A DNA stretch of 64,000 nucleotides from Aquiflexum gelatinilyticum (GTDB taxonomy: Bacteria; Bacteroidota; Bacteroidia; Cytophagales; Cyclobacteriaceae), in assembly GCF_024741135.1 (NCBI RefSeq), contig NZ_JANSUY010000001.1, forward strand, positions 558,001 to 622,000, given 5' to 3'. Position numbers and translations under genes: made by a program. This document shows positions 24,362 to 39,161 of this stretch, one piece after another. How positions within the stretch are numbered: position 1 is the stretch's first letter; each line of letters begins with the position of its first letter. The notes below the pieces were generated by a model. It worked only from the letters and a program-made list of their open reading frames with translations, made no database searches and was not told the DNA's origin.

Positions 24362-24695
24362 AGAGTAAAATGGATGTTGGATTGATATTCAAAGAAAAGA
24401 ACTATTCGAGGGAAGAAACAACTGAAATTTAATAATTACAGAAAAACTTTACGAAGTTCTTACTTGTTGGGTTTTTTTAAGTTGTCCGGTGTTCAGGATA
24501 TTTCCAATTCTTTTACTTTTTTTTTATAAAGATTTACTCTGTATATTTTCTGTATGGAAGTCTGGATATTACACTTTAGAATGTGAACCGAGGTATTTTA
24601 AAATGCATTTGAAATTATTTTTCCCAGTATTATTTTTCTTATTTTGAAATCAAGGAATATTCTCTTTAATTAGGACTAAAATGTCTTAATAAGAA
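24362..24695. other. AT-rich intergenic region holding divergent promoters
   Basis: No gene is seen. It separates the unknown exported protein (minus) from the Rrf2 regulator (plus). The only clear element is the palindrome at 24672-24687 just before the regulator. Confidence 0.5.
24672..24687. promoter_or_regulatory. Rrf2-type palindrome, site 1
   Basis: AGGACTAAAATGTCTT, within the longer TTAGGAC-N6-GTCTTAA, ends 8 nt before the Rrf2 start. It fits the R-G-A-Y/N6/R-T-C-Y palindrome found before the other genes of the region and suggests autoregulation. Confidence 0.55.
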
Positions 24696-25133
24696 ATGAA
24701 AGCACTTTCCCAAACCAGCAAATATGGCATTAGGGCGTTGCTCTACATGGTAGCAAACCCTTCTCAAGGAGAATATATGAGCATTGGAGAAATTGCTAAA
24801 GAGATGGATCTTTCTTTTCATTTTCTTACAAAAATTTTCAGGGAATTGACTTCAAATGGGATTCTTAATTCTTATCGCGGACCGGCAGGTGGAGTTGCCT
24901 TAGCAAAATCTGCCGAATCGATCATGCTTTTGGATGTGGTATTGGCTTTGGAAGGAAACGATTATTTCGACAGTTGCCTTCTCGGTTTTCCGAGGTGTGG
25001 GATAGCCAAACCCTGTCCGGTCCATGAATTCTGGAAAGTAGCCAAAGCAGATTTAAAAGATCATTTTTCCAATACAAGTCTCAGTCAGTTGGCAGAAAAA
25101 ATAAATGCAGATGAAGTGAGACTGTATGATTGA
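24696..25133 (+). CDS. Rrf2 family regulator, NsrR-like
   Basis: A 145-residue Rrf2 protein with a winged helix (YGIRALLYMVANP, then IGEIAKEMDLSFHFLTKIFRELTSNGIL) and three cysteines spaced C-x6-C-x5-C near residues 93-106 (SCLLGFPRCGIAKPCPVH), expected to hold an Fe-S cluster. Rrf2 proteins of the NsrR/IscR type sense NO or cluster status. It lies immediately upstream of the NO reductase gene with a palindrome in front of each, so an NO-responsive repressor of norB is the natural reading. A second regulator with the same Cys spacing is encoded at 38619. Confidence 0.88.
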   Translation: MKALSQTSKYGIRALLYMVANPSQGEYMSIGEIAKEMDLSFHFLTKIFRELTSNGILNSYRGPAGGVALAKSAESIMLLDVVLALEGNDYFDSCLLGFPRCGIAKPCPVHEFWKVAKADLKDHFSNTSLSQLAEKINADEVRLYD

Positions 25134-25150
25134 TTTTTTTTTACATTAAA

Positions 25151-25168
25151 TAAGAATAAATAGTCTTA
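25151..25168. promoter_or_regulatory. Rrf2-type palindrome, site 2 (norB)
   Basis: TAAGAATAAATAGTCTTA shares the TARGA-N8-TCTTA frame of site 1, 35 nt before the norB start. A second, degenerate copy (AATACAAATTTATCCT, 25185-25200) ends 3 nt before the ATG and contains the 13-mer ACAAATTTATCCT that also occurs in site 3 on the minus strand. Confidence 0.5.
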
Positions 25169-25203
25169 AATATGAAATAGAAATAATACAAATTTATCCT
25201 ACT

Positions 25204-27543
25204 ATGAAACCAGAATCTACCTTTCTCAATTACCTCATGAATCCCAAAAATTGGTGGGTACCTTTTTTGGTGATTTTTGTAATCAGTATCGCAGGATTAA
25301 CTTTCATTGGATATCAGACATATACAGAGGCTCCGCCTATTCCTAATTTTGTGGATTCGGATGGTAATAGGGTGGTTTCCAAAGAACAGATTTTGAGCGG
25401 GCAGGAAGTATTTCACAGATATGCCCTTATGGAATATGGGAGTATGTTTGGGGATGGTGCTTTGAGGGGGCCTGACTTCACTGCGCAGGCACTTCATGAA
25501 AATGCTTTGGCGATGAAATCATTCTATTCCCTGACAATGGACAAAAATTCTGATGATCGGGGATTCGGCGATGAAGGTGTTTTGAGTATTGTACAAAAGG
25601 AAATCAAAAACAACACATACGACCCCTCCGATAATTCTGTAGAAGTGACAGATGCTCAGGTTTATGGGATTCAGGCTGTTCAGGATTTTTATATCAGAAT
25701 GTTTACCGACCCAACATTTAAGGAAGGTTTTCAGCCGTCCGGATATATCACAGATGAGCAGGAGCTTCGGGATTTGGGGATGTTTTTTTATTGGGGTTCA
25801 TGGGTTTGCAGTGTAAGTCGTCCGGGTTATAAATACAGTTATACGCATAATTGGCCTTATGATGAGTTTGCGGGTAATCTTCCTACGCCTTCCACGCTTA
25901 TTTGGAGCATAGTAGGTTTGTTGGGATTGGTTTTGGGATTGGGTTTGGTGATGTATTATTATGGACAATTTGAGCAGCTGAATCAGGATTATTTAATCAA
26001 AGGTGCATCTGAAATGGTCACTGAAGACAAACTGAAAAGCTTCAGGCCTAGTCCAACGCAAAGGGCAACATTTAAATTTTTTTATGTGGCGATGATATTG
26101 TTTCTGGTACAGGTTTTGGCAGGTGTATTGACGGTCCATGATTTTGTAGGGTTTACCAAGTACTTTGGTTGGGAAACCCAAGAACTCTTACCTATTACGA
26201 TTTCGAGAAGCTGGCATGTACAATTATCCCTTTTTTGGATTTCGGCTTGTTGGGTAGGAATTTCCTTTTTTGTTTTACCGCTATTGGCCAATAAGGAGCC
26301 AAAAGGCCAACTTACCTTGATCAATCTTTTGTTTTGGGTATTCTTTGTCATGGTGGCCGGTACTGTCATAGGTCTTTTTATGGGACCAAAAGGAATGATG
26401 GGCGAATATTCAAGATGGCTAGGTCATCAGGGTTGGGAGTTTGTAGAACTTGGAAGACTGTACCAATACATGCTTTTATCCATTTTTACTCTTTGGGCTC
26501 TCATTGTTTACCAAGGAGTAAAAGGCACTTTCAAACCCGGTATGCCTTGGGGATTGCCCAATTGGCTGGTCTATTCGATATGTTGTATCTTATTATTGCT
26601 TCTATCAGGATTTGTAGCAAGTCCAGAAACCAATTTTGTCATCGCTGATTTTTGGAGGTGGATGGTTGTCCATATGTGGGTAGAGGCATTCTTTGAGGTT
26701 TTCACGACTATCATTGTAGGATATATGATGGTGATGATGGGATTGGTCAATAGACAGGCGGTAGTCAAGGTGGTCTACTTGTCCGCCCTTTTATTTTTGG
26801 GGTCAGGGCTGATGGGGATTTCCCATAATTTCTACTGGAATGCCAAACCTGTGGCTACGCTTGCATTGGGAAGTGTGTTCTCTACCCTGCAGGTAGTTCC
26901 TTTGATTTTGCTGACCCTTGAAGCCTGGAAGATGCAGAAAATGCCTTATCTCCTAGGGAAGAAGGAAAAGTCCCGGGGAAAGTCTTCCTTGTTTGCCATG
27001 CCGGGCGTATTCTTATTCATCCTTGGTGTGACTTTTTGGAATTTTTTCGGAGCAGGTGTCTTTGGCCTGATCATCAATCTCCCGATTGCCAACTACTACG
27101 AACACGGAACTTACCTTACTGTCAATCACGGACATGCCGCATTGATGGGAGTTTATGGAAATCTATCTATTGCCGCAATTTTGTTTTGCCTGAGGTTTTT
27201 GATCAAACCTGAAAAATGGAACGATTCATTGATCAAAACAGCTTTTTGGTCAATCAACATAGGATTGCTTTTGATGGTGGCATTGGATCTGTTTCCCGCG
27301 GGGATTCACCAATTGGTCGCAGTAATGGAAAACGGATATTGGTATGCAAGGTCACAGGAATTTATTCAAAGTGTTCCTTTTCAATCATTTACCTGGCTTA
27401 GGCTGGTGGGCGGATCGGTATTTTGTTTGGGAGGATTGTTTCCACTCACATGGTTTGTGTTGCGAAGTGCCCGTGATTTGAAAAAATCCAGTCCCTTTCA
27501 GGAGTCTGTAGTGAAAGAAGAAAAAGAGGAAATAGTGGCATAA
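25204..27543 (+). CDS. norB: Quinol-dependent nitric oxide reductase (qNOR)
   Basis: A 779-residue single-subunit NO reductase. Residues 1-230 hold an N-terminal helix plus the periplasmic cytochrome-c-like extension without haem motifs that marks qNOR. Then follow the twelve haem-copper-oxidase helices: SRSWHVQLSLFW near 336 (low-spin haem), HMWVEAFFEVFTT near 490 with the non-haem-iron Glu, and NHGHAALMGVYGN near 640. It reduces 2 NO to N2O with menaquinol in the inner membrane. The gene stands alone behind an Rrf2 regulator, and two palindromes lie in its leader. No cNOR norC is present. Nitrous oxide reductase is not seen in the window. Confidence 0.95.
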   Translation: MKPESTFLNYLMNPKNWWVPFLVIFVISIAGLTFIGYQTYTEAPPIPNFVDSDGNRVVSKEQILSGQEVFHRYALMEYGSMFGDGALRGPDFTAQALHENALAMKSFYSLTMDKNSDDRGFGDEGVLSIVQKEIKNNTYDPSDNSVEVTDAQVYGIQAVQDFYIRMFTDPTFKEGFQPSGYITDEQELRDLGMFFYWGSWVCSVSRPGYKYSYTHNWPYDEFAGNLPTPSTLIWSIVGLLGLVLGLGLVMYYYGQFEQLNQDYLIKGASEMVTEDKLKSFRPSPTQRATFKFFYVAMILFLVQVLAGVLTVHDFVGFTKYFGWETQELLPITISRSWHVQLSLFWISACWVGISFFVLPLLANKEPKGQLTLINLLFWVFFVMVAGTVIGLFMGPKGMMGEYSRWLGHQGWEFVELGRLYQYMLLSIFTLWALIVYQGVKGTFKPGMPWGLPNWLVYSICCILLLLLSGFVASPETNFVIADFWRWMVVHMWVEAFFEVFTTIIVGYMMVMMGLVNRQAVVKVVYLSALLFLGSGLMGISHNFYWNAKPVATLALGSVFSTLQVVPLILLTLEAWKMQKMPYLLGKKEKSRGKSSLFAMPGVFLFILGVTFWNFFGAGVFGLIINLPIANYYEHGTYLTVNHGHAALMGVYGNLSIAAILFCLRFLIKPEKWNDSLIKTAFWSINIGLLLMVALDLFPAGIHQLVAVMENGYWYARSQEFIQSVPFQSFTWLRLVGGSVFCLGGLFPLTWFVLRSARDLKKSSPFQESVVKEEKEEIVA

Positions 27544-27676
27544 GATGTCATTACCAAGTTTCAAAGGGCAAATAATTTGTGTACCCAACTGTAGACGGAA
27601 TCGAATTTTGAAGGGAAGTTCATTTGAGGAAATGTCAAAAAATTAAATATTGTTGTGGTTTTAATCGAGGGGAAAG

Positions 27677-27697
27677 GGCGGAACTTATGGATCCGCC
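27677..27697. terminator. Bidirectional terminator between norB and nrdG
   Basis: GGCGGA (27677-27682) pairs with TCCGCC (27692-27697), flanked by AAAG and a T-run on the plus strand. It lies between the convergent norB and nrdG genes. Confidence 0.75.
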
Positions 27698-27701
27698 TTT
27701 T

Positions 27702-28397
27702 TTAGTTTCTCCATATTACAGTCAAACCTGCGGAAGAGTATTCTTTGGAATATTTCCTTTTAGTGCTTTTGGGTAGGAGTTCAAGGGTAGGGGTTTCATC
27801 TATGAAATGCTGTAAAAAATAATTTCCTGTGAAGCCTTTTGATATTAAAAACCTGACCATTTCCTCCAGTTCATCTTCAGAAATGAGCTCAGAATGTAGG
27901 GTAGTCCTTACCTCAAACGGAATGTCGGAATTTATCAGCAAGTCGAGGCTTTCTTCAAAAAGATGGAATAAATGGGATCTTGTGATCGTAGAAAAGTTTT
28001 TTGGCATTGATTTGAAATCAAGGGCTAAATAATCAACTAGATCTTGGTCTATAAATTTTTTTAAAGTCAAAGGTCTGCTTCCATTTGTGTCGATTTTGAC
28101 TGATATGCCTAAGTCTTTGATTGTTTTGGCTAGCCAAATACTGCCCTCGTGCAGGGTACATTCACCCCCGCTGAAGACTACTCCGTCCAGGAGATTCTTC
28201 CTTTTTTCTAAAAAGTGGAGCACGTCGTCAAAAGTTATCTTTCCTTTTCCCTCTACGATAAGCGGGTTGTAACAATATCCGCATCTCATATTACAGCCTG
28301 CAAACCAAAGGATGCAGGCTGTTTTATCAGGGAAATCCAATAATGTAAAAGGAGTGAGGTCGTAAATGACACCCGTGTTTTTGCTATTTTTCTTCAA
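27702..28397 (-). CDS. nrdG: Anaerobic ribonucleotide reductase activating protein (radical SAM)
   Basis: A 231-residue radical-SAM enzyme with the cluster motif CNMRCGYC near residue 35 and the GGE motif in VVFSGGECTLHEG. It generates the glycyl radical on class III ribonucleotide reductase using S-adenosylmethionine. The start appears to be a TTG at 28397 that overlaps the glycyl-radical peptide gene by 14 nt; no ATG lies before the conserved VIYDLTPFTLLDFP. It belongs to the nrdD operon and is therefore coupled to the peptide it would activate. Confidence 0.9.
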   Translation of the reverse strand: MKKNSKNTGVIYDLTPFTLLDFPDKTACILWFAGCNMRCGYCYNPLIVEGKGKITFDDVLHFLEKRKNLLDGVVFSGGECTLHEGSIWLAKTIKDLGISVKIDTNGSRPLTLKKFIDQDLVDYLALDFKSMPKNFSTITRSHLFHLFEESLDLLINSDIPFEVRTTLHSELISEDELEEMVRFLISKGFTGNYFLQHFIDETPTLELLPKSTKRKYSKEYSSAGLTVIWRN

Positions 28398-28572
28398 AAT
28401 GCTGGCGTTGTTTGTGTTCTCCTTTTTTGCCTATGTTAAAACTTTCAACCGGTCGGTGATATCCCATTACTCTTGTATAAACAAGGCATTTTGTCCTCTT
28501 ATCTTCAAGGATTTCCAGTTGGGTTTTTGTTTTGTGAACAGAATTTGTTTCAAGGATGGTTTGCATAATCAT
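28384..28572 (-). CDS. Separate glycyl-radical C-terminal peptide of class III ribonucleotide reductase
   Basis: A 62-residue protein that looks like the missing end of NrdD: KCLVYTRVMGYHRPVESFN followed by IGKKGEHKQR. In other NrdD enzymes this stretch directly follows the zinc-binding CPxC pair and carries the radical Gly (RVxGY). Here it sits in its own frame with its own ATG (28572, or a second ATG at 28566). It overlaps the nrdD stop by about 23 nt and the nrdG start by 14 nt. The 23-nt overlap and ordered nrdD-peptide-nrdG arrangement suggest a real, coupled gene rather than debris. It would dock on NrdD and receive the radical from NrdG, in the manner of the autonomous glycyl radical cofactor of pyruvate formate-lyase. 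Confidence 0.75.
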   Translation of the reverse strand: MIMQTILETNSVHKTKTQLEILEDKRTKCLVYTRVMGYHRPVESFNIGKKGEHKQRQHFEEK

Positions 28573-30670
28573 TTGGATTTTGGTTTATAGTTTCTAATAA
28601 TATTTCATCGCATTTTGGGCAGTACTCATGTTCTCCTGACAAATACCCATGTGTCGGGCAAATGCTGAATACAGGTGTAACAGTAATGTAAGGGAGCTTA
28701 AAATTGGAAAGCACCTTTTTTACCAAGTTTCTACAGGCTTCAGGAGAACTGATTTTCTCTCTCATATACAGGTGGAGAACAGTACCTCCCGTGTACTTGC
28801 ACTGTAGCTCATCTTGGAGGAGCAGCGCTTCAAATGGGTCATCTGTGAAATCAACAGGAACCTGAGAGCTGTTTGTATAATAAATGTTAGGTCCTGAACC
28901 TGCCTGAATGATATCCGGAAACCTCTTTTTATCTTCTTTCGCAAATCGGTAGGTAGTGCCTTCTGCCGGAGTTGCCTCCAAGTTGTATAGGTTACCTGTA
29001 CTTTCTTGAAAGATTTTCATTCTGTTACGGATATAGTCGAGTATTTCGTTGGTTAGGCTTTGACCAAAATGACTTGTAATATCATCTCTTCCCAAAGTGT
29101 AGTTTAGGATCATTTCATTCATACCATTGACTCCAATGGTTGAAAAATGATTTCTAAAATGCGGCAGATAGCGTTTTGTGTAGGGATAAAGTCCCCTGTC
29201 AAACATGTCTTGGATAAATACCCGTTTCTTTTCTAAAGTGGATTTGGCTATTTCCATCAAGTGGTCAAGTCTTTGGAATAAACCGGTCTTGTTGCCTTTG
29301 TAAATGTAACCCAGTCTCGCCATGTTGATGGTGACCACACCGATGCTACCGGTCATCTCGGCACTTCCAAAGAGTCCATTTCCTCTTTTTAGCAGTTCTC
29401 TGAGGTCCAACTGAAGTCTGCAACACATGCTTCTGACAGCATTTGGTTTATAGGCGAGTGGATTTTCAACTTTTTTTCCAGACTCATCAAAGGTGTATTG
29501 ACTGCCAATGAAATTTTGAAAGTACGAGGAACCGATTTTGGCTGTATTTTCAAAAAGCAGGTCGGTGTTTGGTCCATACCAATCAAAATCCTCAGTGATG
29601 TTGACTGTGGGGATAGGGAAGGTAAATGGTTGCCCATTGGCATCTCCTTCCGTCATAATGGTATAATATGCTTTGTTGATCAGGTTCATTTCAGCCTGAA
29701 AGTGCTTGTAAGTCAATTCTTCCAAAGAATGGACACCTCTCTCTTTTGCTTTTGAGATCAAATCCTCATTTTGCAAACCCCTGAAAAAGTGCAGATCGTT
29801 TTTAGTAGGAATCTGGTCTTTGAGATCTTCCGGCACGACCCAATCCAAGGTGATGTTTGTAAAAGGAGATTGTCCCCATCTGGCCGGAACGTTGAGGTTA
29901 TAGACAAATGACCTGATTGCTTTCTCTACCTCTTTGTAAGGTAAGTTGTCTTTAAATATATAAGGGGCAAGATACGTGTCAAAAGAACTGAAAGCCTGGG
30001 CACCGGCCCATTCACTCTGAAGGATGCCTAGGAAATTGGCCATCTGTCCAAGGGCTTCCCTGAAATGGGACGGGGCTTTGCTCTCGACCCGGCCTCTGAC
30101 ACCGTTGAATCCTTCATTTAGTAACACCCGCAAACTCCATCCTGCGCAATATCCTGTAAGGCAATCCAGATCATGGATGTGGATATCACCATTGCGGTGA
30201 GAGTAGCCTTCCTCTTTACTGTAAATTTTGTCAAGCCAATAATTAGCAATGATTTTTCCGGCTACATTGTTGACCAATCCGGCATTAGAGTAGGAGGTAT
30301 TTGCGTTTGCATTGATCCGCCAATCCGTTTGGTGGACATATTCTTCTATAGTCTGGGTACTGTCCACATAGGTCGTATCCTCATTCAATCCGGCTACATG
30401 TTCCCGTTGGAGTTTTCGGGTGTGTCTGTAAAGCATGAAGGAACGCATGACTGAAAAATATCCAGCTGAAAAAAGTTCTTTTTCTATTTTATCCTGAATT
30501 TCTTCTACTGACCAAGTCGTTTTTTCTGCCAAACTATTTAGAATATTTTCAAAGATGGTCTGGTTATACAGGACGTTTACACTTTCAAAGCCCTTTTTGA
30601 GGGCATCTTCAATTTTGTACGGCTCAAAAGCCGCATATTCGCCATTTCTTTTGATAACATATTGCTCCAT
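28550..30670 (-). CDS. nrdD: Anaerobic ribonucleoside-triphosphate reductase, large part without the radical Gly
   Basis: A 706-residue class III reductase. The N-terminal ATP-cone (residues about 1-95) starts YVIKRNGEYAAFEPYKIEDAL. The ten-stranded barrel includes HIHDLDCLTGYCAGWSL and RMKIFQESTGNLYNLEATPAE. The C-terminal zinc site is CPTHGYLSGEHEYCPKC. The protein stops about 20 residues after CPKC and lacks the RVxGY radical motif, which is in the next, overlapping gene. It makes dNTPs without oxygen. It suits a facultative anaerobe or denitrifier. A palindrome of the Rrf2 type lies 145 nt upstream. Confidence 0.93.
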   Translation of the reverse strand: MEQYVIKRNGEYAAFEPYKIEDALKKGFESVNVLYNQTIFENILNSLAEKTTWSVEEIQDKIEKELFSAGYFSVMRSFMLYRHTRKLQREHVAGLNEDTTYVDSTQTIEEYVHQTDWRINANANTSYSNAGLVNNVAGKIIANYWLDKIYSKEEGYSHRNGDIHIHDLDCLTGYCAGWSLRVLLNEGFNGVRGRVESKAPSHFREALGQMANFLGILQSEWAGAQAFSSFDTYLAPYIFKDNLPYKEVEKAIRSFVYNLNVPARWGQSPFTNITLDWVVPEDLKDQIPTKNDLHFFRGLQNEDLISKAKERGVHSLEELTYKHFQAEMNLINKAYYTIMTEGDANGQPFTFPIPTVNITEDFDWYGPNTDLLFENTAKIGSSYFQNFIGSQYTFDESGKKVENPLAYKPNAVRSMCCRLQLDLRELLKRGNGLFGSAEMTGSIGVVTINMARLGYIYKGNKTGLFQRLDHLMEIAKSTLEKKRVFIQDMFDRGLYPYTKRYLPHFRNHFSTIGVNGMNEMILNYTLGRDDITSHFGQSLTNEILDYIRNRMKIFQESTGNLYNLEATPAEGTTYRFAKEDKKRFPDIIQAGSGPNIYYTNSSQVPVDFTDDPFEALLLQDELQCKYTGGTVLHLYMREKISSPEACRNLVKKVLSNFKLPYITVTPVFSICPTHGYLSGEHEYCPKCDEILLETINQNPNDYANHP

Positions 30671-30979
30671 ATCGGTGGTTTTATTTTTAAGTTTTTACAA
30701 AAACTTTTCCAATGTAAAAATTCAGTATTTATCCATTAAGGAGTTTGGTCATGGCACGCTGTGAGATAAATCATACTTTTTTGTCTTAAATTATTTTGGT
30801 TAATAAGAAAATAAAGGATAAATTTGTCCTCCAATAAAAAAGACAAAATACCCTGATTTATCAGCATTGAAGGAAGGTTTATTCAGAAGTGTACACCTGG
30901 ATTTAATCGATTTTCATTTTTAGCCATTATTGGACAGGTGCTGAAAAATACATTGAAGGGTGGATCTGAAATGTAAACA
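30671..30979. other. Divergent nrdD / PTPS intergenic region
   Basis: No gene is seen. It holds palindrome site 3 (30815-30830). A GTCTTAA...TTAATAAGA pair (30783-30807) lies next to it and may be a second, weaker site. I found no clear TAnnTTTG element on either strand. Confidence 0.5.
30815..30830. promoter_or_regulatory. Rrf2-type palindrome, site 3 (nrdD / PTPS gene)
   Basis: AGGATAAATTTGTCCT has AGGAT/GTCCT arms (one mismatch) and a 6-bp spacer. It lies 145 nt ahead of nrdD and 150 nt ahead of the divergent PTPS-like gene, so it could serve either. Confidence 0.55.
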
Positions 30980-31405
30980 ATGCTGAGTATTACAAAAATT
31001 TTCAGTTTCGAAGCGGCCCATCGAATTTCAAATTATCAGGGCTCTTGCAGCAGGGTTCATGGCCACAGTTACAAAATACAAATTACTGTCACAGGCAAGG
31101 AGATTGGAGAAGATGACATGCTTATTGACTTTAAAGTATTGAAGGATTTGGTAAATGAATCCGTTATACGGCAATTTGACCACAGTTTTATCCTCCAAAG
31201 AAATGCGAAAAACATCAACGATTTTTCACTGCTTGAACAAAGGGTTTTTTGGATGGATTACGAACCCACCGCAGAAAGGATGGTTCTTTGGATGGTAACA
31301 GAATTGGAAAAAGCATTGCCAGTTTCTATTTACCTCAGAAAAATAGTCCTATTTGAAACCGAAACTTCTTTTGTCACATGGGAAAGTGTTCCACACTTAA
31401 AATAG
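30980..31405 (+). CDS. 6-pyruvoyl-tetrahydropterin synthase / QueD-like protein
   Basis: A 141-residue T-fold protein. Zinc ligands are visible as FEAAHRI and HGHSYKI, with the conserved DFKVLKDLV and DHSFIL and a C-terminal Glu in VLFETETS. It converts dihydroneopterin triphosphate to 6-carboxy- or 6-pyruvoyl-tetrahydropterin, the second step toward queuosine, or toward a pterin cofactor. The usual catalytic Cys region is SCSRVHGHSY, which keeps a Cys. It is divergent from nrdD and shares its palindrome-bearing intergenic region, which hints at a role in anaerobic metabolism rather than general queuosine supply. No queC or queE is adjacent. Confidence 0.82.
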   Translation: MLSITKIFSFEAAHRISNYQGSCSRVHGHSYKIQITVTGKEIGEDDMLIDFKVLKDLVNESVIRQFDHSFILQRNAKNINDFSLLEQRVFWMDYEPTAERMVLWMVTELEKALPVSIYLRKIVLFETETSFVTWESVPHLK

Positions 31406-31527: not shown

Positions 31528-31579
31528 CCCGCTTGATAATGATCTTTTCACGAATAAATTATAAATAAAGTCTTTGCTT

Positions 31580-33376
31580 ATGTTCCGTTCCCAAGCAGCC
31601 ACACATAGTTTCCATATCCCTGTTATGGGATTGGGTTTTACCGCTGACACCCCAATCAAAGTTGCCAAATACGGGATTTCCTCTGTGGTCTCCATCATGG
31701 ATGACCACATGTTGGAAGACCTGAGGCGCATTTACAGCAGAAAATTACAGATTCCTTACCTGCCGATCAGCGACAAAACCGATGATTCCCGTGCCAACAG
31801 GATCAAAGCCTACCTCAATTTGATACACGATGCTGTGAGTAAGCAAATAGAAGAACTCAAATCCCAATCTTTTGAATACGGCATTGCTATCAATGAATAT
31901 TTCACTTTGTTGCCGGAAAACCATGGTCTAAAAGTGCTTTATGAAAAAATGAAGCAGGAAGTGGGGGAAGCCAAGGCAGCTATCCAAAGCAGGTTGAAAG
32001 CCGCCATTTCCCCCGGCAAAATTGATGTCAACATCATGACCAAAGTGGACAAAATCAACTTTGACAAAGAAGGAAATGAACTGCCAAGGGAATATTCAGA
32101 TGCCCTCTCTGCCCTTAGGGGATTTGCAGAAAGTGAATTGGAATCTTCCGTTGTGTTTTCTGCCGGGATGAATCCTTCGCTCTATGGATATGCAGAGCAG
32201 TTCGCAGATTTTTTTCCTGACCAAAATGGAAAAATCAAAAAAGGCATCATCCTCAAAGTAAGTGATTATCGTTCCGCTTTGATTCAGGGAAGGTTTTTGG
32301 CAAAGAAAGGATTGTGGGTATCGGAATTCAGGATAGAATCGGGACTCAACTGTGGGGGTCATGCCTTCGCCACGGACGGTCTGTTGATCGGCCCGATATT
32401 GGAGGAATTCAAAAACAACAGAGCGGAATTGAGACAGGTATTGTTTGATACTTGCCAAAAGGCTTTGACTGACAAGGGTAGTCAACTTCTTTCAGATGAT
32501 ATCATGCCGAAGATCACCTATCAAGGCGGTATTGGTTCTGCAGCAGAAGACAAATTCCTGATGAATTATTACCAACTAGACGGTACCGGTTGGGGAAGCC
32601 CTTTTTTGCTCGTGCCAGAGGCGACGAGTGTGGACAAGGATACTTTGGACAGGTTGATCCAATCCCGAAAATCAGATTATTACCTCAGCCATGCATCACC
32701 GTTGGGTGTGCCTTTCAATAACCTCCGAACAAGCAGCGGAGAAGAACAGCGGCTTTCGAGGATTGAAAAAAACAGACCGGGAAGTCCCTGCTACAAAAAG
32801 TTCCTGTCATTTAGTACAGAGTTTTCTTCCAAACCTATCTGCACTGCATCGCGCGAATACCAAAACCTCAAGTTGAAACAATATGCCGAAGGAAATGCCC
32901 GCCTGCCTGAGGTGGAGGAGGTATTGGAAAAAGACTGTCTTTGTGAAGGGCTGAGTGCTTCAGTCATTCTGAATCAAGGAGAAGAACCAAAAAGAAACCT
33001 AAAGGCTGTAACCATTTGTCCGGGTCCCAATCTGGCTTATTTTAAAGGGGTTTTTAGCCTTAAAGAGATGTTAGATCACATATATGGGAAAGCCAATATC
33101 ATACTTGATCCTGAAAGGCCGCAGGTATTTGTAAAGGAACTTCAACTCTATGTGCAACACCTTCAGCACGAAATCGGGAAATCGATACCTGAAAGAACAC
33201 AAAAATTTGAGGTCTATGTTGAAAAATTCAAATCAAATCTGTCTCAGGGAATTGCCTATTACCAGGAATTGATTGCTTCTTTTCCACTCGATACCGAAGA
33301 GGTGGTGGAGAAAATGAGGAATCAACTTTCAGAATTGAAAGAAAAAATAAGCTCCATGGAATTGGTTAAAGCATAA
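31580..33376 (+). CDS. Cys-rich protein of unknown function in the NO/anaerobic region
   Basis: A 598-residue cytoplasmic protein. The start MGLGFTADTPIKVAKYGISSVVSIMDD (after 13 residues) looks like the opening of a flavin-type TIM barrel, similar in feel to nitronate monooxygenase or glutamate-synthase barrels. The middle has SGLNCGGHAFATDG. From residue about 380 several Cys cluster: GSPCYKKFLSF, KPICTASREY, EKDCLCEGLSASVI and TICPGPNLAYF. Spaced Cys of this kind could bind an Fe-S cluster. The last 100 residues are coiled-coil-like. I do not recognise a family name. ATG 31580 is preferred to a TTG two codons upstream. It lies between the PTPS gene and the ScdA_N gene. Confidence 0.6.
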   Translation: MFRSQAATHSFHIPVMGLGFTADTPIKVAKYGISSVVSIMDDHMLEDLRRIYSRKLQIPYLPISDKTDDSRANRIKAYLNLIHDAVSKQIEELKSQSFEYGIAINEYFTLLPENHGLKVLYEKMKQEVGEAKAAIQSRLKAAISPGKIDVNIMTKVDKINFDKEGNELPREYSDALSALRGFAESELESSVVFSAGMNPSLYGYAEQFADFFPDQNGKIKKGIILKVSDYRSALIQGRFLAKKGLWVSEFRIESGLNCGGHAFATDGLLIGPILEEFKNNRAELRQVLFDTCQKALTDKGSQLLSDDIMPKITYQGGIGSAAEDKFLMNYYQLDGTGWGSPFLLVPEATSVDKDTLDRLIQSRKSDYYLSHASPLGVPFNNLRTSSGEEQRLSRIEKNRPGSPCYKKFLSFSTEFSSKPICTASREYQNLKLKQYAEGNARLPEVEEVLEKDCLCEGLSASVILNQGEEPKRNLKAVTICPGPNLAYFKGVFSLKEMLDHIYGKANIILDPERPQVFVKELQLYVQHLQHEIGKSIPERTQKFEVYVEKFKSNLSQGIAYYQELIASFPLDTEEVVEKMRNQLSELKEKISSMELVKA

Positions 33377-33389
33377 GAAAAAATAATAA

Positions 33390-33405
33390 AGGATATATTT
33401 GTCCG
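33390..33405. promoter_or_regulatory. Rrf2-type palindrome, site 4
   Basis: AGGATATATTTGTCCG lies across the TTTG -33 box (33398-33401) of the promoter at 33398-33428, a position suited to repression. Confidence 0.6.
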
Positions 33406-33428
33406 ATAATATTTTTCTTTTATATTTG
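33398..33428 (+). promoter_or_regulatory. Strong Bacteroidota promoter (TTTG-N19-TATATTTG)
   Basis: TTTG at 33398-33401, a 19-nt spacer and TATATTTG at 33421-33428 match the -33/-7 consensus exactly. Transcription would begin near 33435 and run into the ScdA_N and NnrS-like genes. Palindrome site 4 overlaps the -33 box. Confidence 0.7.
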
Positions 33429-33456: not shown

Positions 33457-33474
33457 TTCATTTTCTAATAATAA

Positions 33475-33490
33475 AGGATGGTTATATCCT
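33475..33490. promoter_or_regulatory. Rrf2-type palindrome, site 5
   Basis: AGGATGGTTATATCCT, within AAAGGAT-N6-ATCCTTT, is a perfect 7-bp inverted repeat 17 nt before the ScdA_N start. Together with site 4 it gives this promoter two operators 85 bp apart (eight helical turns), which would allow looping. Confidence 0.6.
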
Positions 33491-33508
33491 TTTATAAACA
33501 GGTTAATT

Positions 33509-33739
33509 ATGAAAAATTTCAAAGAATTTAAAATGAGGGAGATAGTCAACACAGACTTGAGAGCGATTGGAGTTTTCAAAAAGCTTGGAATTGATTATGA
33601 TAATTGTAAAGAAAAAACATTGCTAGAGGTCTGTGGAAAAGAGCATATCAATCCCGAATTGGTATTGGACTACATGGCGGAAGCCATTCTTAATGACCTG
33701 ACTTGGGTAGATTACAAAATGCCAAGTCAAATTCATTGA
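33509..33739 (+). CDS. Stand-alone ScdA_N (DUF542) domain protein
   Basis: A 76-residue protein that matches the N-terminal domain of RIC/ScdA iron-centre repair proteins: EIVNTDLRAIGVFKKLGIDY, then KEKTLLEVC and a second helix pair. Complete RIC proteins repair Fe-S and di-iron centres damaged by NO or peroxide. Here the usual Cys-Cys-Gly-Gly after the first helix pair is replaced by DNCK, and no haemerythrin-like domain follows, so only a partner-type role is expected. Its likely start is ATG 33509. It has a strong promoter with two palindromes and probably shares a transcript with the NnrS-like gene, which begins 41 nt later. Confidence 0.75.
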   Translation: MKNFKEFKMREIVNTDLRAIGVFKKLGIDYDNCKEKTLLEVCGKEHINPELVLDYMAEAILNDLTWVDYKMPSQIH

Positions 33740-33780: not shown

Positions 33781-34869
33781 ATGAAGCTGGCCAAACCCAT
33801 TTATCTTTTTCCTCTTGTTGTTCTAGCCCTGTTGATGGGAGTCGCAGGTGGATGGATCAGAATGGGGTATGTAGGATTTCCCATCCCCGGTACTGCAGCA
33901 AGCCATGGGATTTTGATGGTAGGAGGGTTTTTGGGTACGCTGATTTCTTTGGAGCGGGCAATGGTCATGAAAAGTAGAATATGGTTGCTTATTCCCCTCA
34001 TTAGTGGGCTTTCCATCCCGGTTTTGTTGTTGGTACCGGGATGGCCCGCTTTTGCAAATGCGCTTCTATTTTTGGCTAGCCTCGGATTGATGGCAATCAT
34101 GTATCTTCAATCCCACAGGCACCCGGTAATATACCAGTATGTGATGACGATGGGGGCTGTACTTTGGATGGCGGGAAATTTCATGCTACTCTATTCAGGA
34201 TTTGTGCCTGCGGCTGTTCCTTGGTGGATTGGGTTCATTTTGTTTACGATAGTGGGAGAGAGGCTGGAGTTGAGCAAATTCCTTCCCATACCCAAGATTG
34301 CAAAAAGTGGCCTTTTGCTGTTGTTGACCTTGTTTTTTATCGGGATATGGATTCCATTCCATCGGTATGGCAATTGGCTTATGGGTACTTGTTCCATTAT
34401 GATTTCATTTTGGCTACTTCATTTCGACATGGCCAAGATCGCTGCCAAAAAAGCCGATCAATTCAAATACATAGGCATTGGTCTTCGGGTAGGATATGTT
34501 TGGTTGACCTTACACGGGATTATACTTTGTTTCTTTGAACCACACGTCCTGTATTACGACTTGTATATCCATACTTTCTTTTTGGGATTTGCATTTTCGA
34601 TGATCTGGGCTCATGCACCAATCATACTTCCGATGGTCTTGAATATAAGGCATACTCCCTATCATCCTATTCTTTGGGTAGGATGGATAGTTTTCCAAGT
34701 GAGTTTATTCGGAAGAATCCTAGTCAGTCTGATAGGTTTACCCGAGTGGAGGACTTTCTTTGGAATGATCAATGGATGGACCATTTTGGGAATGTTTGCT
34801 CTCATGGCGATGATCACATTAATCAAAATGATTTTAAGCCAAAGAGCATTGGGTACAGCAAGAAGTTAA
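33781..34869 (+). CDS. Polytopic membrane protein, NnrS-like (tentative)
   Basis: A 362-residue protein with eleven or twelve hydrophobic helices. The opening motif SHGILMVGGFLGTLISLERA near residue 40, several membrane histidines (HRHPVIYQYV, HTFFLGFAFSMIWAHAPIILP) and the setting beside norB and ScdA_N recall the NnrS family of haem/copper membrane proteins that relieve NO stress. The match is weak and by eye. The start is MKLAKPIYLF; codons upstream overlap the ScdA_N gene. It is probably cotranscribed with ScdA_N. Confidence 0.6.
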   Translation: MKLAKPIYLFPLVVLALLMGVAGGWIRMGYVGFPIPGTAASHGILMVGGFLGTLISLERAMVMKSRIWLLIPLISGLSIPVLLLVPGWPAFANALLFLASLGLMAIMYLQSHRHPVIYQYVMTMGAVLWMAGNFMLLYSGFVPAAVPWWIGFILFTIVGERLELSKFLPIPKIAKSGLLLLLTLFFIGIWIPFHRYGNWLMGTCSIMISFWLLHFDMAKIAAKKADQFKYIGIGLRVGYVWLTLHGIILCFFEPHVLYYDLYIHTFFLGFAFSMIWAHAPIILPMVLNIRHTPYHPILWVGWIVFQVSLFGRILVSLIGLPEWRTFFGMINGWTILGMFALMAMITLIKMILSQRALGTARS

Positions 34870-34922: not shown

Positions 34923-34958
34923 GCACTGATTTAGATTATAAGTACAAATTGCCCTGTC

Positions 34959-35333
34959 ATGTTGAAAAGTAGCCTACATATCTTTCTATCCCTGATCATC
35001 GTGCTCAACGGCATGATGTATTCGGTGATTCAGGCAGAATTTTTCATGAACAGGAAAGAAATCACTGCACTTTTTTGCATCAATCAGGACCGGCCTGAAC
35101 TCAAGTGTAACGGCAAGTGTGAATTGGGCAGGAGACTCGATCAGGCTCAAGATCAGGAAGATAACCAACAGGACTTTGCCTTTGAAGGATTGTTGCTGAT
35201 TTATGGCATGCCTGTCACTGCTTTTAATATTATACCTTTTTGGACCTCTATTGATCCGGTTTTTGGAGATTTGGATGAAAATAAAAATATGCTTCCGAAC
35301 GCTTATGATTTTTTTCATCCACCGCAAAGTTGA
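34959..35333 (+). CDS. Small exported CNGKC protein of the TonB-receptor-associated type
   Basis: A 124-residue protein with an N-terminal hydrophobic helix or signal (residues 1-27, SSLHIFLSLIIVLNGMMYSV) and the conserved FCINQDRPELKCNGKCELGRRL. Such small proteins are frequent just upstream of Bacteroidota TonB receptors for metals. The CxxxC pair and neighbouring Cys could bind copper or iron, but no function is proved. It lies 164 nt ahead of the copper receptor gene with the Crp/Fnr-like site in front. Confidence 0.7.
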   Translation: MLKSSLHIFLSLIIVLNGMMYSVIQAEFFMNRKEITALFCINQDRPELKCNGKCELGRRLDQAQDQEDNQQDFAFEGLLLIYGMPVTAFNIIPFWTSIDPVFGDLDENKNMLPNAYDFFHPPQS

Positions 35334-35497
35334 TTTCCTGATTTTTCTTAAACCGCAATTCAAAAAATTCTTTTCCCAAGAAGCAACGCTTTAGCAGGAA
35401 AGCATTTTACGGTGCGGTCATTAGCTAAAACTGCCCCATAGCAGATTTAGCTTGGATTTTCCTGTCCAAAAACCTCTACCAAAAAGAATTATCAATC

Positions 35498-37768
35498 ATG
35501 AAATCTTACCTACCATTCCAAAAATCCATTTTGTTGGCAATGATTTTTCTTGCCTTGTCCATCAGCAGTTCATTTCCCCAAAACCTTAAAAAATTTCAGG
35601 TTCTTGATCAGCAAACCCAAGAACCAATTATTGGTCTCATTTACTATTATGCCTCCCAAAAGGGACTTTCTGACGAGAAAGGATTTATCCAATTGGAGTA
35701 TGAAGCAGGGACATCCATCCATTTCAGCCATATCAATTATGGAAAATGGACCTTGGATGAAGGCTCGCTTCTGAAAGTATTGGAAAAAGGAGTTCTCCTT
35801 CGTCAAGAAAATATCCTCAATCTCCAGCCAGTTTCTGTCATTTCTTTAAAAATGATGGATGAAAAGGACCAAAAAATTCTGATTTCAGATCAGGAAAGGC
35901 TTCACCATGATGCAGGGGCCATCCTCAATCTCAATCCGGTAGTTTCTTCCATCAGAAAAAGCGGCGCTTTTGCTTTTGACCCTGTCATGCGTGGATTCAA
36001 ATACGATCAACTCAACATAGTCATTGATGGATTGCAGTCTGCTAATGCTGCCTGTCCCAACAGAATGGATCCTCCGACTTCTCAAATTGCACTTAACAGA
36101 ATCAAACAGATTGAAATCCTTAAAGGGCCACATGCGCTTCGATACGGTATCGGATTGGGAGGTACGATCAACTTCATTCAGGAAGATCCTTTTTTCTCTT
36201 CCCAAGGCGGTGTAAACGGAAGGTTTTCGACCATGTATGAATCCAATGGAAATGTATTAAGAAACGAAGGAAGGGTCGGATTCAACGGTCATAATTATGA
36301 TATCGGGTTGCTTGGTTCCTGGTCGAAAGGAACAGATTACGTTGACGGAGATGGGAATTTTGTTCCGGCAAACTTCCAAAGAGGAACTGTCGGGATGTTT
36401 GGGGATTTTAAGATTTCAAATTCTGATCTTTTGCAGGTGACAGTCAATAGAAATTTTGCCAGAGATGTGGATTTCCCGACTTTGGCGATGGACCTAAGGT
36501 CAGACGATACATGGATGGGGAGTCTGAGGCATACCCGAAGCTTTCAAGGTAGAAAACTGCAAAAATGGAATACATCGGGATATTTTACTTTTGTCGATCA
36601 TTTGATGGACAACGGGTTGAGAGATCTCAATCCCCGCATGATGAATGCAAAAACCCCAGCCAACACCCAAAACCTTGGAGCAAGAACAGAAGGACTTTGG
36701 CAATTGGGAAAGGAAAAATTATACGCAGGAGCGGATTTCAGGTCAGAAGCTGCCCAAGGAACAAGAGAAAGAGAGTTTTTGATGGGGCCGAATGCGGGAA
36801 AAACTATCTACGATAAAGTGTGGCAGGATTCCCGGATAACAAAGTCAGGGGCTTTTGCCTCTATTCATGCGCCGATAGGCAATTATGTGGTCAGTTTGGC
36901 AGGAAGGTTGGATGTAAACAATGCCCAGGCCTCGGACAATGCGGAGGAATTTGTCCAAGTCAATCCTACCCAATCCATCACCCAACTAAATCCCGGGATC
37001 TCAGCAGGAATCAAGCGTGATTTGGGAAAGAATTTCAATGCCGGACTGTGGTTGGCAAGTGTCAAGCGTAGTGGCAGCATCACCGAGCGGTTTATCAATT
37101 ATTTCCCTGTGGGAGTTGATCCTTATGAAATGCTTGGAAATCCTGATTTGGCATCGGAAACCAACAACCAAGTCGATTTGGTTTTTGGATTCAGCAAATC
37201 AAAAATTACAGCCGAGGTAAACTTGTTTGCGGCTTACCTCAATAATTATATCACTGCCGAAAAAACCGAACTGAAACCAAGAATCCCCACAAGTCCGGGA
37301 GTCAGGCAATATGTCAATATTGACCGTGCAGTCAAAACCGGGTTTGAGGCGGCATTAAGTCAGGCATTATTTTATGGAATTAGTCATCAATTGATGGTGG
37401 CATATACCTATGGGCAAAATCTGGTGATTTCTGAGGCTTTACCGGAGATCGCCCCGATGGATGTCAGGTATTCTATATTAGGCAGCCACTTAGACAATAA
37501 GCTGCATTCTGCGATCAGGCTTCGATATGTCGCAGACCAAAACCGTGTTTCTGGGAGCTTTAGTGAAACAGCAAGTCCAAGGTTTACACTTTTGGACATT
37601 GATGTCAGTTATGCGGTTTCCTCTCTTATTGCAATCAAGGGTGGCGCACAAAACTTATTGAATGAAACTTACTATGAGCATTTGAACAGACCGATTGCGG
37701 CAACCGGAACGCCGCTTTTTGCTCCGGGAAGAAATTTCTTCCTGATGGTAAGTTTCAAATTTCCTTGA
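35498..37768 (+). CDS. TonB-dependent copper receptor, NosA/OprC-like
   Basis: A 756-residue outer-membrane receptor with signal peptide (about 1-28), a carboxypeptidase-like N-terminal extension (residues 30-110), a plug domain (about 130-245, ILKGPHALRYGIGLGGTINF) and a 22-strand barrel ending SFKFP. The plug holds AACPNRMDPPTSQ near residue 185. OprC of Pseudomonas aeruginosa uses the Cys and Met of the same CxxxM segment to bind copper, and NosA of denitrifiers is its homologue. This is the best evidence for copper import, needed for N2O reductase and other Cu enzymes. It lies in the NO region, behind a Crp/Fnr-like site. Confidence 0.88.
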   Translation: MKSYLPFQKSILLAMIFLALSISSSFPQNLKKFQVLDQQTQEPIIGLIYYYASQKGLSDEKGFIQLEYEAGTSIHFSHINYGKWTLDEGSLLKVLEKGVLLRQENILNLQPVSVISLKMMDEKDQKILISDQERLHHDAGAILNLNPVVSSIRKSGAFAFDPVMRGFKYDQLNIVIDGLQSANAACPNRMDPPTSQIALNRIKQIEILKGPHALRYGIGLGGTINFIQEDPFFSSQGGVNGRFSTMYESNGNVLRNEGRVGFNGHNYDIGLLGSWSKGTDYVDGDGNFVPANFQRGTVGMFGDFKISNSDLLQVTVNRNFARDVDFPTLAMDLRSDDTWMGSLRHTRSFQGRKLQKWNTSGYFTFVDHLMDNGLRDLNPRMMNAKTPANTQNLGARTEGLWQLGKEKLYAGADFRSEAAQGTREREFLMGPNAGKTIYDKVWQDSRITKSGAFASIHAPIGNYVVSLAGRLDVNNAQASDNAEEFVQVNPTQSITQLNPGISAGIKRDLGKNFNAGLWLASVKRSGSITERFINYFPVGVDPYEMLGNPDLASETNNQVDLVFGFSKSKITAEVNLFAAYLNNYITAEKTELKPRIPTSPGVRQYVNIDRAVKTGFEAALSQALFYGISHQLMVAYTYGQNLVISEALPEIAPMDVRYSILGSHLDNKLHSAIRLRYVADQNRVSGSFSETASPRFTLLDIDVSYAVSSLIAIKGGAQNLLNETYYEHLNRPIAATGTPLFAPGRNFFLMVSFKFP

Positions 37769-37801
37769 TACACAGTGTTGATTGTTGTTTGGTTTGGAAA
37801 G

Positions 37802-37821
37802 CCGGTTCTTGTAAGAATCGG
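37802..37821 (+). terminator. Terminator of the copper receptor gene
   Basis: CCGGTTCTT (37802-37810) pairs with AAGAATCGG (37813-37821, one G-T pair) and is followed by a run of seven T, 33 nt past the stop. Confidence 0.75.
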
Positions 37822-37831
37822 TTTTTTTATT

Positions 37832-38494
37832 TCAAATTTTTCTAAAAGAACAAAAAGTATAATGTTGCCTTAAGCCTCCGGGGGTGATATGGTCGGTTTG
37901 GAAGCAATTGGTTTTTTGGAAATATGGACTGAAAACTTCCGTCAATTTCTCGATAGAATATTGGGTGACCGGAAGTCCGCTGCAATGTGTAGGGCCCTGG
38001 TCAGAGAAAGTCCCGATAAGCATCAATCCGTCTTCGGAAATGGACTCATTGGCTATTCGTACATAGTTTTCTATTTCTTTTGGGTCAAGCAAAAAGTGGA
38101 ACGCTGCCCTGTCATGCCATACTTCAAATTTTTCTTTGGGCTCAAAGTCTAAAATGTCTGTATTGATCCATGTGACCTTTGAGGCATCTTTTCCCAATCT
38201 TACTTTGGCTTTTTCTATGGCTTTGGCAGATAAGTCTAAGACATACACGTGCAAGTAACCCAAATCCAAAAGGTGGTCGACTAAATAGCTATCTCCGCCA
38301 CCAACGTCCAAAATCTTGGCCTCTTTATGGATTTTGAATTCTTCAAAAAAGGAAAGAGAAACTGTTGGTGTTTTTTGGTACCAACCCACTTCGGTAAAAT
38401 CCTTTGTTTGGTAAATTTTCTCCCAATGTTTCAATTTATCTAAACTCGAGATGATTTGATTTTGGTCATATAGGTTTTTTCCGGTTTGATTCAT
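37832..38494 (-). CDS. Class I SAM-dependent methyltransferase
   Basis: A 220-residue Rossmann methyltransferase starting at MNQTGKNLYD. It shows motif I ILDVGGGDSYLVDHLL near residue 60, an acidic strand end VYVLDLSAKAIEKAK, a NTDILDFEPKEKF post-motif and a WHDRAAFHFL segment. Substrate-binding details point to no specific family; the TehB/UbiE type is closest in size. It is divergent from the second Rrf2 regulator, and the palindrome at 38550 lies in their shared intergenic region, which ties it to the same regulon. A longer frame reading through the palindrome is unlikely. Confidence 0.85.
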   Translation of the reverse strand: MNQTGKNLYDQNQIISSLDKLKHWEKIYQTKDFTEVGWYQKTPTVSLSFFEEFKIHKEAKILDVGGGDSYLVDHLLDLGYLHVYVLDLSAKAIEKAKVRLGKDASKVTWINTDILDFEPKEKFEVWHDRAAFHFLLDPKEIENYVRIANESISEDGLMLIGTFSDQGPTHCSGLPVTQYSIEKLTEVFSPYFQKTNCFQTDHITPGGLRQHYTFCSFRKI

Positions 38495-38549
38495 ATTTCG
38501 AAATTCTAAAAAAAAACCAATCAGTTCTGTAATAAATATTACCGATAAT

Positions 38550-38565
38550 AAGATTAAAATATCTT
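38550..38565. promoter_or_regulatory. Rrf2-type palindrome, site 6
   Basis: AAGATTAAAATATCTT is an AAGAT-N6-ATCTT inverted repeat. It lies 56 nt before the methyltransferase start and 54 nt before the divergent Rrf2 start, so it can serve both genes. Confidence 0.55.
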
Positions 38566-38618
38566 TTATTTGGGTTTCTATTCCTATTCTTGTCACCTGC
38601 GTTAGATTTATTCAGCAT

Positions 38619-39056
38619 ATGTTTTCAAAAACCTGTCAATACGCCATTAAAGCAGTAATTTATATCCACAAACAATCTTTGGTGGGTAAAAAAGTAGGAG
38701 CAAAAGAGATCGGTCAGGAGATAGATGCGCCTGATGCATTCACTGCCAAGATTCTTCAGATTTTGGTCAGGCAGCAGGTGGTAGGTTCCTTCAAAGGCCC
38801 TACAGGAGGTTTTTTTGTTGACAAGAGCCATGAATCCAAAACCTTGAAAGATGTTGTTATGGCCATTGACGGTGACGGTTTATTCCATGGTTGCAGTTTG
38901 GGGCTGAAACAATGTTCTGAAGTAAACCCATGTCCCCTTCATTTTGAAATCTCAAATGTCCGTACCAAGATTATCCACATGCTGACTGTAAAAAGTCTGA
39001 AACAGCTAGCTGAGGAAGTTGGTGATGGCACGACTGTTTTGGCGAGGTTTGCCTGA
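38619..39056 (+). CDS. Rrf2 family regulator, second copy
   Basis: A 145-residue Rrf2 protein with the winged helix (CQYAIKAVIYIHKQS, then AKEIGQEIDAPDAFTAKILQILVRQQVV) and Fe-S-type cysteines C-x6-C-x5-C (HGCSLGLKQCSEVNPCPLH), the same spacing as the regulator at 24696. It probably senses NO or redox state through an Fe-S cluster. It lies divergent from the methyltransferase and 138 nt ahead of the fasciclin gene, with palindromes on both sides. Which of the two regulators binds which palindrome cannot be told from sequence. Confidence 0.87.
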   Translation: MFSKTCQYAIKAVIYIHKQSLVGKKVGAKEIGQEIDAPDAFTAKILQILVRQQVVGSFKGPTGGFFVDKSHESKTLKDVVMAIDGDGLFHGCSLGLKQCSEVNPCPLHFEISNVRTKIIHMLTVKSLKQLAEEVGDGTTVLARFA

Positions 39057-39141
39057 TATTTTTGTAAATTTTTGACTAAAGGGGATTTAAAAAGTTTGTT
39101 GGGTTAAAACCATTTTTAGAAAATCATGACTTTTATCATAA

Positions 39142-39157
39142 AGGATAAAATTATCCT
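39142..39157. promoter_or_regulatory. Rrf2-type palindrome, site 7 (best copy)
   Basis: AGGATAAAATTATCCT sits in the longer perfect inverted repeat ATAAAGGAT-N6-ATCCTTTAT (39138-39161), with nine-bp arms. A TATTTTTG promoter element begins 1 nt after it, so bound regulator would cover the promoter. Confidence 0.7.
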
Positions 39158-39161
39158 TTAT

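Follow-up and report, generated by a model that had tools for sequence, protein, structure and literature searches.

We analysed a 64,000-nucleotide stretch of the Aquiflexum gelatinilyticum genome (contig NZ_JANSUY010000001.1, positions 558,001 to 622,000; hereafter the window, in whose numbering positions are given). Palindromic sites in it precede genes for two Rrf2-family regulators (Rrf2-1 and Rrf2-2), norB, the divergent nrdD and PTPS, an ScdA_N gene, a methyltransferase and a fasciclin lipoprotein (Table 1). An earlier note on this DNA had described seven sites, at 24672, 25152, 30815, 33390, 33475, 38550 and 39142, as one operator of the form ARGA-N8-TCYT in a predicted nitric oxide (NO) and anaerobic regulon. 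Six of the seven matched this pattern exactly; the site at 33390 (AGGATATATTTGTCCG) ends in TCCG and falls outside it. The gene identities given in the note (Rrf2, norB, nrdD, PTPS, ScdA_N, methyltransferase and fasciclin) were borne out by Pfam and NCBIfam, with ScdA_N below the Pfam cut-off, and both window Rrf2 proteins had the C-x6-C-x5-C spacing that it reported, followed in each by x2-H. A third Rrf2 gene of the same clade (Rrf2-3), with RIC, was found in the same genome outside the window. The site at 38550 is within the longest GTG-started methyltransferase open reading frame (ORF), yet homologues point to a later protein start, which would leave it upstream (at -67 in locus L121 of the same genus, where the counterpart of this operator, in genome G245, is AATAAGATGAAAATATCTTTTA).

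Table 1. Operators and genes of the proposed regulon in the window, with the Rrf2-3 locus of the same genome.
Feature	Position	Strand	Details
Operator before Rrf2-1, B/A intermediate	24669..24690	+	ATTAGGACTAAAATGTCTTAAT; ends 5 bp before ATG
Rrf2-1 regulator	24696..25133	+	PF02082 E 2e-29; C94-x6-C101-x5-C107-x2-H110
Operator B before norB	25149..25170	+	AATAAGAATAAATAGTCTTAAA
norB, quinol-type nitric oxide reductase, fused cytochrome-c-like domain	25204..27543	+	PF00115, PF22085
nrdG, class III ribonucleotide reductase (RNR) activase	27702..28397	-	TIGR02495 188.2 bits, cut-off 131.15
nrdD, anaerobic ribonucleotide reductase	28550..30670	-	PF13597 E 1e-160
Operator A between divergent nrdD and PTPS/QueD-like gene	30812..30833	.	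TAAAGGATAAATTTGTCCTCCA; de novo rank third, 21.5
PTPS/QueD-like protein	30980..31405	+	PF01242, TIGR03367
P600, 600-aa protein of unknown family	31574..33376	+	no Pfam/NCBIfam family at E 0.001
Operator A	33387..33408	+	TAAAGGATATATTTGTCCGATA; de novo rank second, 25.9; -7 box TATATTTG at 33421
Operator A before ScdA_N gene	33472..33493	+	TAAAGGATGGTTATATCCTTTT; de novo rank fifth, 17.5
ScdA_N-only 76-aa protein	33509..33739	+	PF04405 E 8e-6, 25.8 bits, below cut-off 32.5
Multi-pass membrane protein, NnrS-like by eye only	33781..34869	+	no relevant Pfam hit
Class I methyltransferase	37832..38494	-	PF13649; start near 38494 probable, from homologues
Operator A between divergent methyltransferase and Rrf2-2	38547..38568	.	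AATAAGATTAAAATATCTTTTA; de novo rank fourth, 19.1
Rrf2-2 regulator	38619..39056	+	PF02082 E 5e-20; C-x6-C-x5-C-x2-H
Operator A before fasciclin gene	39139..39160	+	TAAAGGATAAAATTATCCTTTA; de novo best in window, 28.4
Fasciclin-domain lipoprotein	39195..39758	+	ATG at 39195; PF02469 E 1e-31
Rrf2-3 (third Rrf2 gene), then full RIC/YtfE	G000:C1:536145-537400 (L018, L070), 21 kb before window		C-x6-C-x5-C-x2-H; two A sites upstream; weaker one (12.8, window-trained matrix) between genes

Discrimination was obtained only with 22-bp matrices, not with short patterns. Bare ARGA-N8-TCYT occurred 12 times in the window versus 7.16 ± 2.59 in shuffles (at least 12 in 8 of 100 shuffles), and genome-wide it showed no excess (676 versus 757 for a reversed control pattern); with both counts near chance, it was rejected as a test of the sites. 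A 20-bp consensus with up to three mismatches gave 5/4 places versus 1/1, and another consensus with up to two mismatches gave 25/19 versus 14/17. Two adjoining loose-pattern matches at 8573-8611 (AAGAGAGTTTACTCTT and AAGATTCAGTGATCTT) were not of the type A defined below, and AGGACTTTTCAGTCCT at 21269-21284, directly past the 3' end of a minus-strand ORF (21313-22788), is probably a terminator stem.

A 22-bp matrix was built from the seven sites (the window-trained matrix). When each site was left out in turn, their ranks in the window were 1, 5, 5, 6, 9, 9 and 10, and in a 20-kb stretch of the same genome outside the window the two top scores (22.1 and 20.0) lay directly before the third Rrf2 gene. 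Since the 91 distinct sites used for a further matrix (matrix A), all outside the window, had been chosen with the window-trained matrix, a de novo search was run as an independent check. Expectation-maximisation from 60 random starts, with symmetry and a length of 22 bp as the sole assumptions, was applied to 105 distinct 140-bp regions upstream of Rrf2-clade genes, from which the Rrf2-1 type, the window and its own genome were excluded. All five best starts converged on TAAAgGAtAaattTaTCcTTTA, with an estimated presence in 63% of the 105 regions. In the window, the five top places under the de novo matrix were 39142, 33390, 30815, 38550 and 33475 (scores 28.4 to 17.5), the same five sites that matrix A returned; 24672 ranked sixth (15.2), and 25152 was outside the ten best places. 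Five window places scored at least 16 under this matrix, versus 0.08 in mononucleotide-shuffled windows.

The sites are two related operators, A and B, and the single operator of the earlier note was not borne out. Those five sites are type A (consensus TAAARGAYAWWWTTRTCYTTTA), the norB site at 25152 is type B, and the site at 24672 before Rrf2-1 is intermediate (B 16.6 in leave-one-out, A 12.9). Rrf2-1 genes carry B sites resembling TTTCGGACTTATTACTCTTAAT close to their start, and the norB site was found at -46 to -52, near ATTAAGATTAAATACTCTTAAA, in 12 of 13 aligned upstream rows, the window included. A symmetric matrix B, derived from Rrf2-1 operators with the same genome left out, scored above matrix A for 12 of 12 norB sites (14.4-23.8 versus -4.1 to 10.8; 14.4 versus 5.2 for the window site); one row with a degenerate site (L114) was left out of this comparison, and two rows (L118 and L141) look like one genome. 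On the B fit and the absence from the de novo ten best, a single operator for all sites was rejected for norB. We further compared target sites with the own operators of four Rrf2 paralogue groups, leaving out own operators with fewer than 5 of 11 complementary pairs or none (such as L116 of Rrf2-1, and G018 and G031 of Rrf2-2), genes sharing less than 60% identity with the window paralogues (the fourth type was kept) and target sites scoring below 14. The Rrf2-1 operator was best for norB sites in 11 of 11 relatives' rows, and the Rrf2-3 operator for fasciclin sites in 9 of 9. The remaining targets were divided between Rrf2-3 and Rrf2-2: 10 and 2 for nrdD, 20 and 8 for RIC, 7 and 1 for the membrane protein, and 2 and 1 for P600. 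The fourth paralogue, found in relatives (RVKIG... helix region), has sites resembling TTTCCGATAAATTTGTCGGAAA. Of 48 own operators, 45 were assigned to the paralogue that they precede, versus a mean of 20.0 (maximum 33) over 100 within-genome label shuffles. Such comparative evidence supports the predicted pairing of regulator and site.

The Rrf2 domain scored 102.9 bits in Rrf2-1, 72.5 in Rrf2-2 and 90.3 in Rrf2-3, against a Pfam cut-off of 30. C94, C101, C107 and H110 were invariant in 15 aligned proteins that we picked from the window, its own genome and relatives. Of 194 genomes of the order, 45 were matched by a profile of the 15, none of these with a best E weaker than 3.1e-44; the other genomes gave no match at 1e-25. 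Rrf2-1 and Rrf2-2 scored below the cut-offs of the NCBIfam equivalogs of both NsrR (58.2 and 21.1 bits; cut-off 182) and IscR (65.7 and 37.6 bits; cut-off 207.55), and the best PDB sequence match was IscR.

Conservation was examined in stretches flanking Rrf2 homologues from relatives within the family and order, plus eight named loci (seven from Algoriphagus species or metagenome-assembled genomes, and one from a Cyclobacteriaceae metagenome-assembled genome). The sites are genuine, conserved across the family, mostly intergenic and coupled to the Rrf2 clade. In 28 stretches (27 from relatives and one from the own genome), 65 of 76 sites scoring at least 16 were intergenic, in 119 kb of intergenic versus 654 kb of coding DNA (5.5 times as much); equal frequency in coding DNA, which the earlier note had named as a result that would speak against its proposal, was not found. 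In the same stretches, 200 column-permuted matrices gave 1.0 ± 1.9 intergenic places (maximum 14). Upstream sites were counted in a larger set, including the own-genome stretch, as scores of at least 14 within 300 bp, with clade genes defined by the C-x6-C-x5-C-x2-H motif. A site was present in 62 of 120 Rrf2-clade rows, 28 of 56 for RIC, 12 of 17 for nrdD, 4 of 10 for PTPS, none of 18 for nrdG, 8 of 14 for the membrane protein, 1 of 2 for ScdA_N and 1 of 5 for the methyltransferase; A-type sites preceded P600 in 3 of 13 rows and norB in 4 of 19. The nine fasciclin rows with a site (of 18) were all nine at 68% identity or above, versus 0 of 9 below. Such a site occurred in 3% of random windows, and in none of 20 1-kb controls at distant RIC genes from genomes without the Rrf2 clade (best 11.9) or 20 1-kb controls at other Rrf2 genes (best 10.8), the latter being weaker matches of the homologue search chosen without regard to the cysteine motif. 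In counts over the 194 genomes, uncorrected for kinship, all 6 genomes with nrdD (E below 1e-100) have the Rrf2 clade, as do 31 of the 32 with near-type RIC (E below 1e-30); the remaining RIC matches listed were more distant (about 22-32% identity) and occurred in genomes with and without the clade.

Operator A was also linked in relatives to a norC-like cytochrome with a COX1-family subunit and to a nirK-like multicopper oxidase-cytochrome, where the names norC and nirK are our reading of Pfam domains. Further site-linked genes encode a flavohaemoglobin, a globin, a Crp/Fnr regulator, a NapC/NirT-type cytochrome, a B12-type RNR, NadA and a UDG-superfamily protein. In L076 (10772-12784) and L082 (10521-12438), operator A stands before two BLAST-similar proteins, the L082 one being a B12-type RNR barrel by Pfam; in L128, L135 and L160 it stands before a three-protein BLAST cluster, the L128 member being a flavohaemoglobin by Pfam.

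The -7 element of Bacteroidota promoters has the consensus TAnnTTTG. Across 111 distinct operator contexts, its start lay 33-35 nt past the operator start in 35 cases and within the operator, at +7, in 25; within +12 to +47 it was present in 47 of the 111, versus 7% of random 35-mers. At 33390, TATATTTG follows the operator start by 34 nt, the peak offset. Some Rrf2-3 genes have tandem sites, among them those of G039, G053, G043 and the own genome; there the upstream operator covers the expected -33 region, and the -7 box falls within the second. Because the operators overlap promoters, which is the geometry of a repressor, repression is likely. The Rrf2 repressors would act as winged-helix dimers with an iron-sulphur (Fe-S) cluster, probably held by three cysteines and one histidine. 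With the cluster intact, they would bind the 22-bp palindrome over the core promoter and block RNA polymerase; NO would destroy the cluster and release the repressor. Type A would serve Rrf2-2, Rrf2-3 and their targets (RIC, nrdDG/PTPS, ScdA_N plus the membrane protein, the methyltransferase and fasciclin), and type B would serve Rrf2-1 itself and norB, so that each repressor would be autoregulated. NO would then co-induce NO reduction, iron-centre repair and class III deoxyribonucleoside triphosphate (dNTP) synthesis. We infer protein binding, the Fe-S cluster, the NO signal and the direction of control alike from sequence, NO being the proposed signal because the targets are norB, RIC, norC-like, nirK-like, flavohaemoglobin and globin genes. 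The window probably represents much of an NO-responsive regulon under paralogous Rrf2 Fe-S repressors of the NsrR/IscR kind. The NO and anaerobic regulon of the earlier note thus stands as to conserved sites, their tie to the Rrf2 clade and the additional NO and denitrification genes in relatives, and falls as to the single operator. At somewhat less than even chance, the duplicated Rrf2 repressors and their operators (A, B and a third resembling TTTCCGATAAATTTGTCGGAAA) have diverged in step, so that a single genome runs several NO circuits side by side, each with its own DNA code: norB would have one circuit to itself, and another would govern repair, anaerobic dNTP synthesis and fasciclin, perhaps at different NO thresholds.

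Several observations weigh against an NO-responsive Rrf2 regulon. The stretches were picked around Rrf2 genes, and enrichment was thus measured in a biased set; the upstream target counts, promoter-box counts and paralogue classification all use sites picked by the window-trained matrix. The set consists of related rows, with at least one genome entered twice (L118 and L140/L141, with identical sites, were kept). No site scoring at least 14 was present in 58 of 120 Rrf2-clade, 28 of 56 RIC, 9 of 18 fasciclin and 10 of 13 P600 rows. The stricter 18-bp AARGAY-N6-RTCYTT gave 25 places versus 25 control in the own genome, 4 of them belonging to the proposed regulon, and the 20-bp AT-flanked WWARGAYW6RTCYTWW gave 96 versus 100 summed over 60 family genomes (5 versus 0 in the own genome alone). 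With unsymmetric matrices, B exceeded A for only 10 of 12 norB sites, L115 being reversed and the window tied (7.2 each). Promoter descent can explain part of the match between operator and paralogue; the match was therefore taken as support rather than proof of pairing, because promoters descend with their genes, and norB carries more weight here, its promoter not being that of an Rrf2 gene. Matrix A also scored 19-20 at two own-genome places that are off theme and perhaps chance, C7:18443 and C15:87656 (L222 and L223), where the neighbours are a glycosyltransferase-like ORF and, some 290 bp away, a DEAD-box helicase ORF.

Among other explanations, chance palindromes in AT-rich intergenic DNA would account for the unenriched short patterns but are hardly credible, given that A sites stood far above shuffles and controls and were rediscovered without the window, and that position is kept in norB orthologues. 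The palindromes might instead be bound by another factor, such as a Crp/Fnr regulator, with the Rrf2 genes as mere targets; a Crp/Fnr-type gene does have an A site in relatives, and HcpR is the nitrosative-stress regulator of Bacteroides in the available parts of PMC13370916 and PMC1274295. We consider this very improbable, since the operator is unlike the HcpR (TTGAC-N4-GTCAA) and FNR (TTGAT-N4-ATCAA) sites given in the available part of PMC1274295, its type tracks the Rrf2 paralogue, and across the 194 genomes nrdD and near-type RIC go with the Rrf2 clade. The same operators and Rrf2 proteins could also answer to iron or Fe-S status or to oxygen, in the manner of IscR or RirA, with the NO genes as one output of several. 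The aligned C-C-C-H set, with its histidine three residues after the last cysteine, recalls IscR, the best PDB match points the same way, and nrdD and, in relatives, NadA, the UDG-superfamily protein and the B12-type RNR suit an oxygen or Fe-S theme. However, the commonest targets were NO-related (RIC, norB, norC-like, nirK-like and flavohaemoglobin), and no isc/suf or siderophore gene was present among the 20 Pfam-scanned site-linked proteins, a part of all site-linked genes. We consider an iron or oxygen signal rather unlikely.

P600 was present in 13 rows of the fetched stretches. Its sequence looked TIM-barrel-like by eye; structure prediction from the single sequence gave no usable fold (mean predicted local distance difference test score 35.7), comparison with PDB sequences gave chance-level matches only (best E 0.46), and no homologue was found among plasmid sequences. 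The NnrS identity considered for the membrane protein (33781-34869) was dropped for want of Pfam support. Its distant homologues on proteobacterial plasmids (11 records) were annotated as hypothetical or unannotated, and one of them sits in the nor-nrdDG cluster of Cupriavidus necator.

NO- and nitrous oxide-reducing Bacteroidota are widespread. The operator pair, the Rrf2 clade and the target list make the regulation of their NO reduction testable and regulons readable from genomes, and the pairs of paralogue and operator lend themselves to a study of how DNA is read by Rrf2 proteins. Candidates in NO physiology now include the fasciclin lipoprotein, P600 and the membrane protein. The Fe-S ligands of NsrR have a spacing other than that found here and lack the added histidine. 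IscR has a Cys3-His pattern, as here, with the histidine three after the last cysteine; its first gap is x5 versus x6 here, and no isc/suf target was found among the 20 scanned proteins. On C. necator pHG1 (L242, NC_005241.1 243017-259934), ytfE, qNOR, NrdD, NrdG, a homologue of the membrane protein (27% identity, 84% covered) and an Rrf2 gene lie within 10 kb. That Rrf2 protein is without the cysteine motif, operator A was absent from the 17-kb stretch (best score 0.5), and a different repeat, AAGATACATTTTTAATCTATCTT, lies upstream of the Rrf2 gene.

The NO regulator described for this phylum in the parts of the cited papers available is HcpR of Bacteroides and its kin, with dnrN as a target in B. 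fragilis (PMC1274295) and with an RNA alongside it in B. thetaiotaomicron (PMC13370916). HcpR resembles the present system in governing a nitrosative-stress regulon in the same phylum, and differs, as far as that part of PMC1274295 goes, in being an FNR-like positive regulator with other sites. In Pseudomonas aeruginosa, the NO sensor Dnr raises nrdJ and, in biofilm, nrdD (PMC4860495, as available); it likewise links NO sensing to anaerobic RNR, but is an activator acting mainly on class II, and mutation of the nrdD box was without significant effect. Scaffolds with clade II nosZ, many of them assigned to Bacteroidetes groups, have been seen to carry Rrf2 genes, whose role was called difficult to predict (PMC6264515, in part), and the available part of PMC9268430, on RIC regulation, contains no Bacteroidota case. 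Among the literature matches listed, in a search outside subscription journals and regulon databases, neither an Rrf2 NO regulon in Bacteroidota nor the present operator was described. The earlier note had thought the link among these genes undescribed. Fasciclin was not found in such a regulon in the literature searches aimed at it; norB, RIC, nrdD and Rrf2 are already clustered on C. necator pHG1, and published work places dnrN/RIC, nnrS and norB under NsrR (PMC1274295, in the part available). According to that part, NsrR recognises gATGyAT-N5-ATrCATc in beta- and gammaproteobacteria, Bacillus and Streptomyces, and its targets include hmp, hcp, dnrN, nnrS, norB and nirK. The present system resembles it in the Rrf2 family, in norB and dnrN/RIC as predicted targets and in hmp-like genes in some relatives of the window genome. 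It differs in its operators, A and B both being unlike the NsrR consensus, and goes beyond NsrR in having several paralogues with operators of their own and in adding nrdDG, fasciclin, P600 and the methyltransferase as putative targets.

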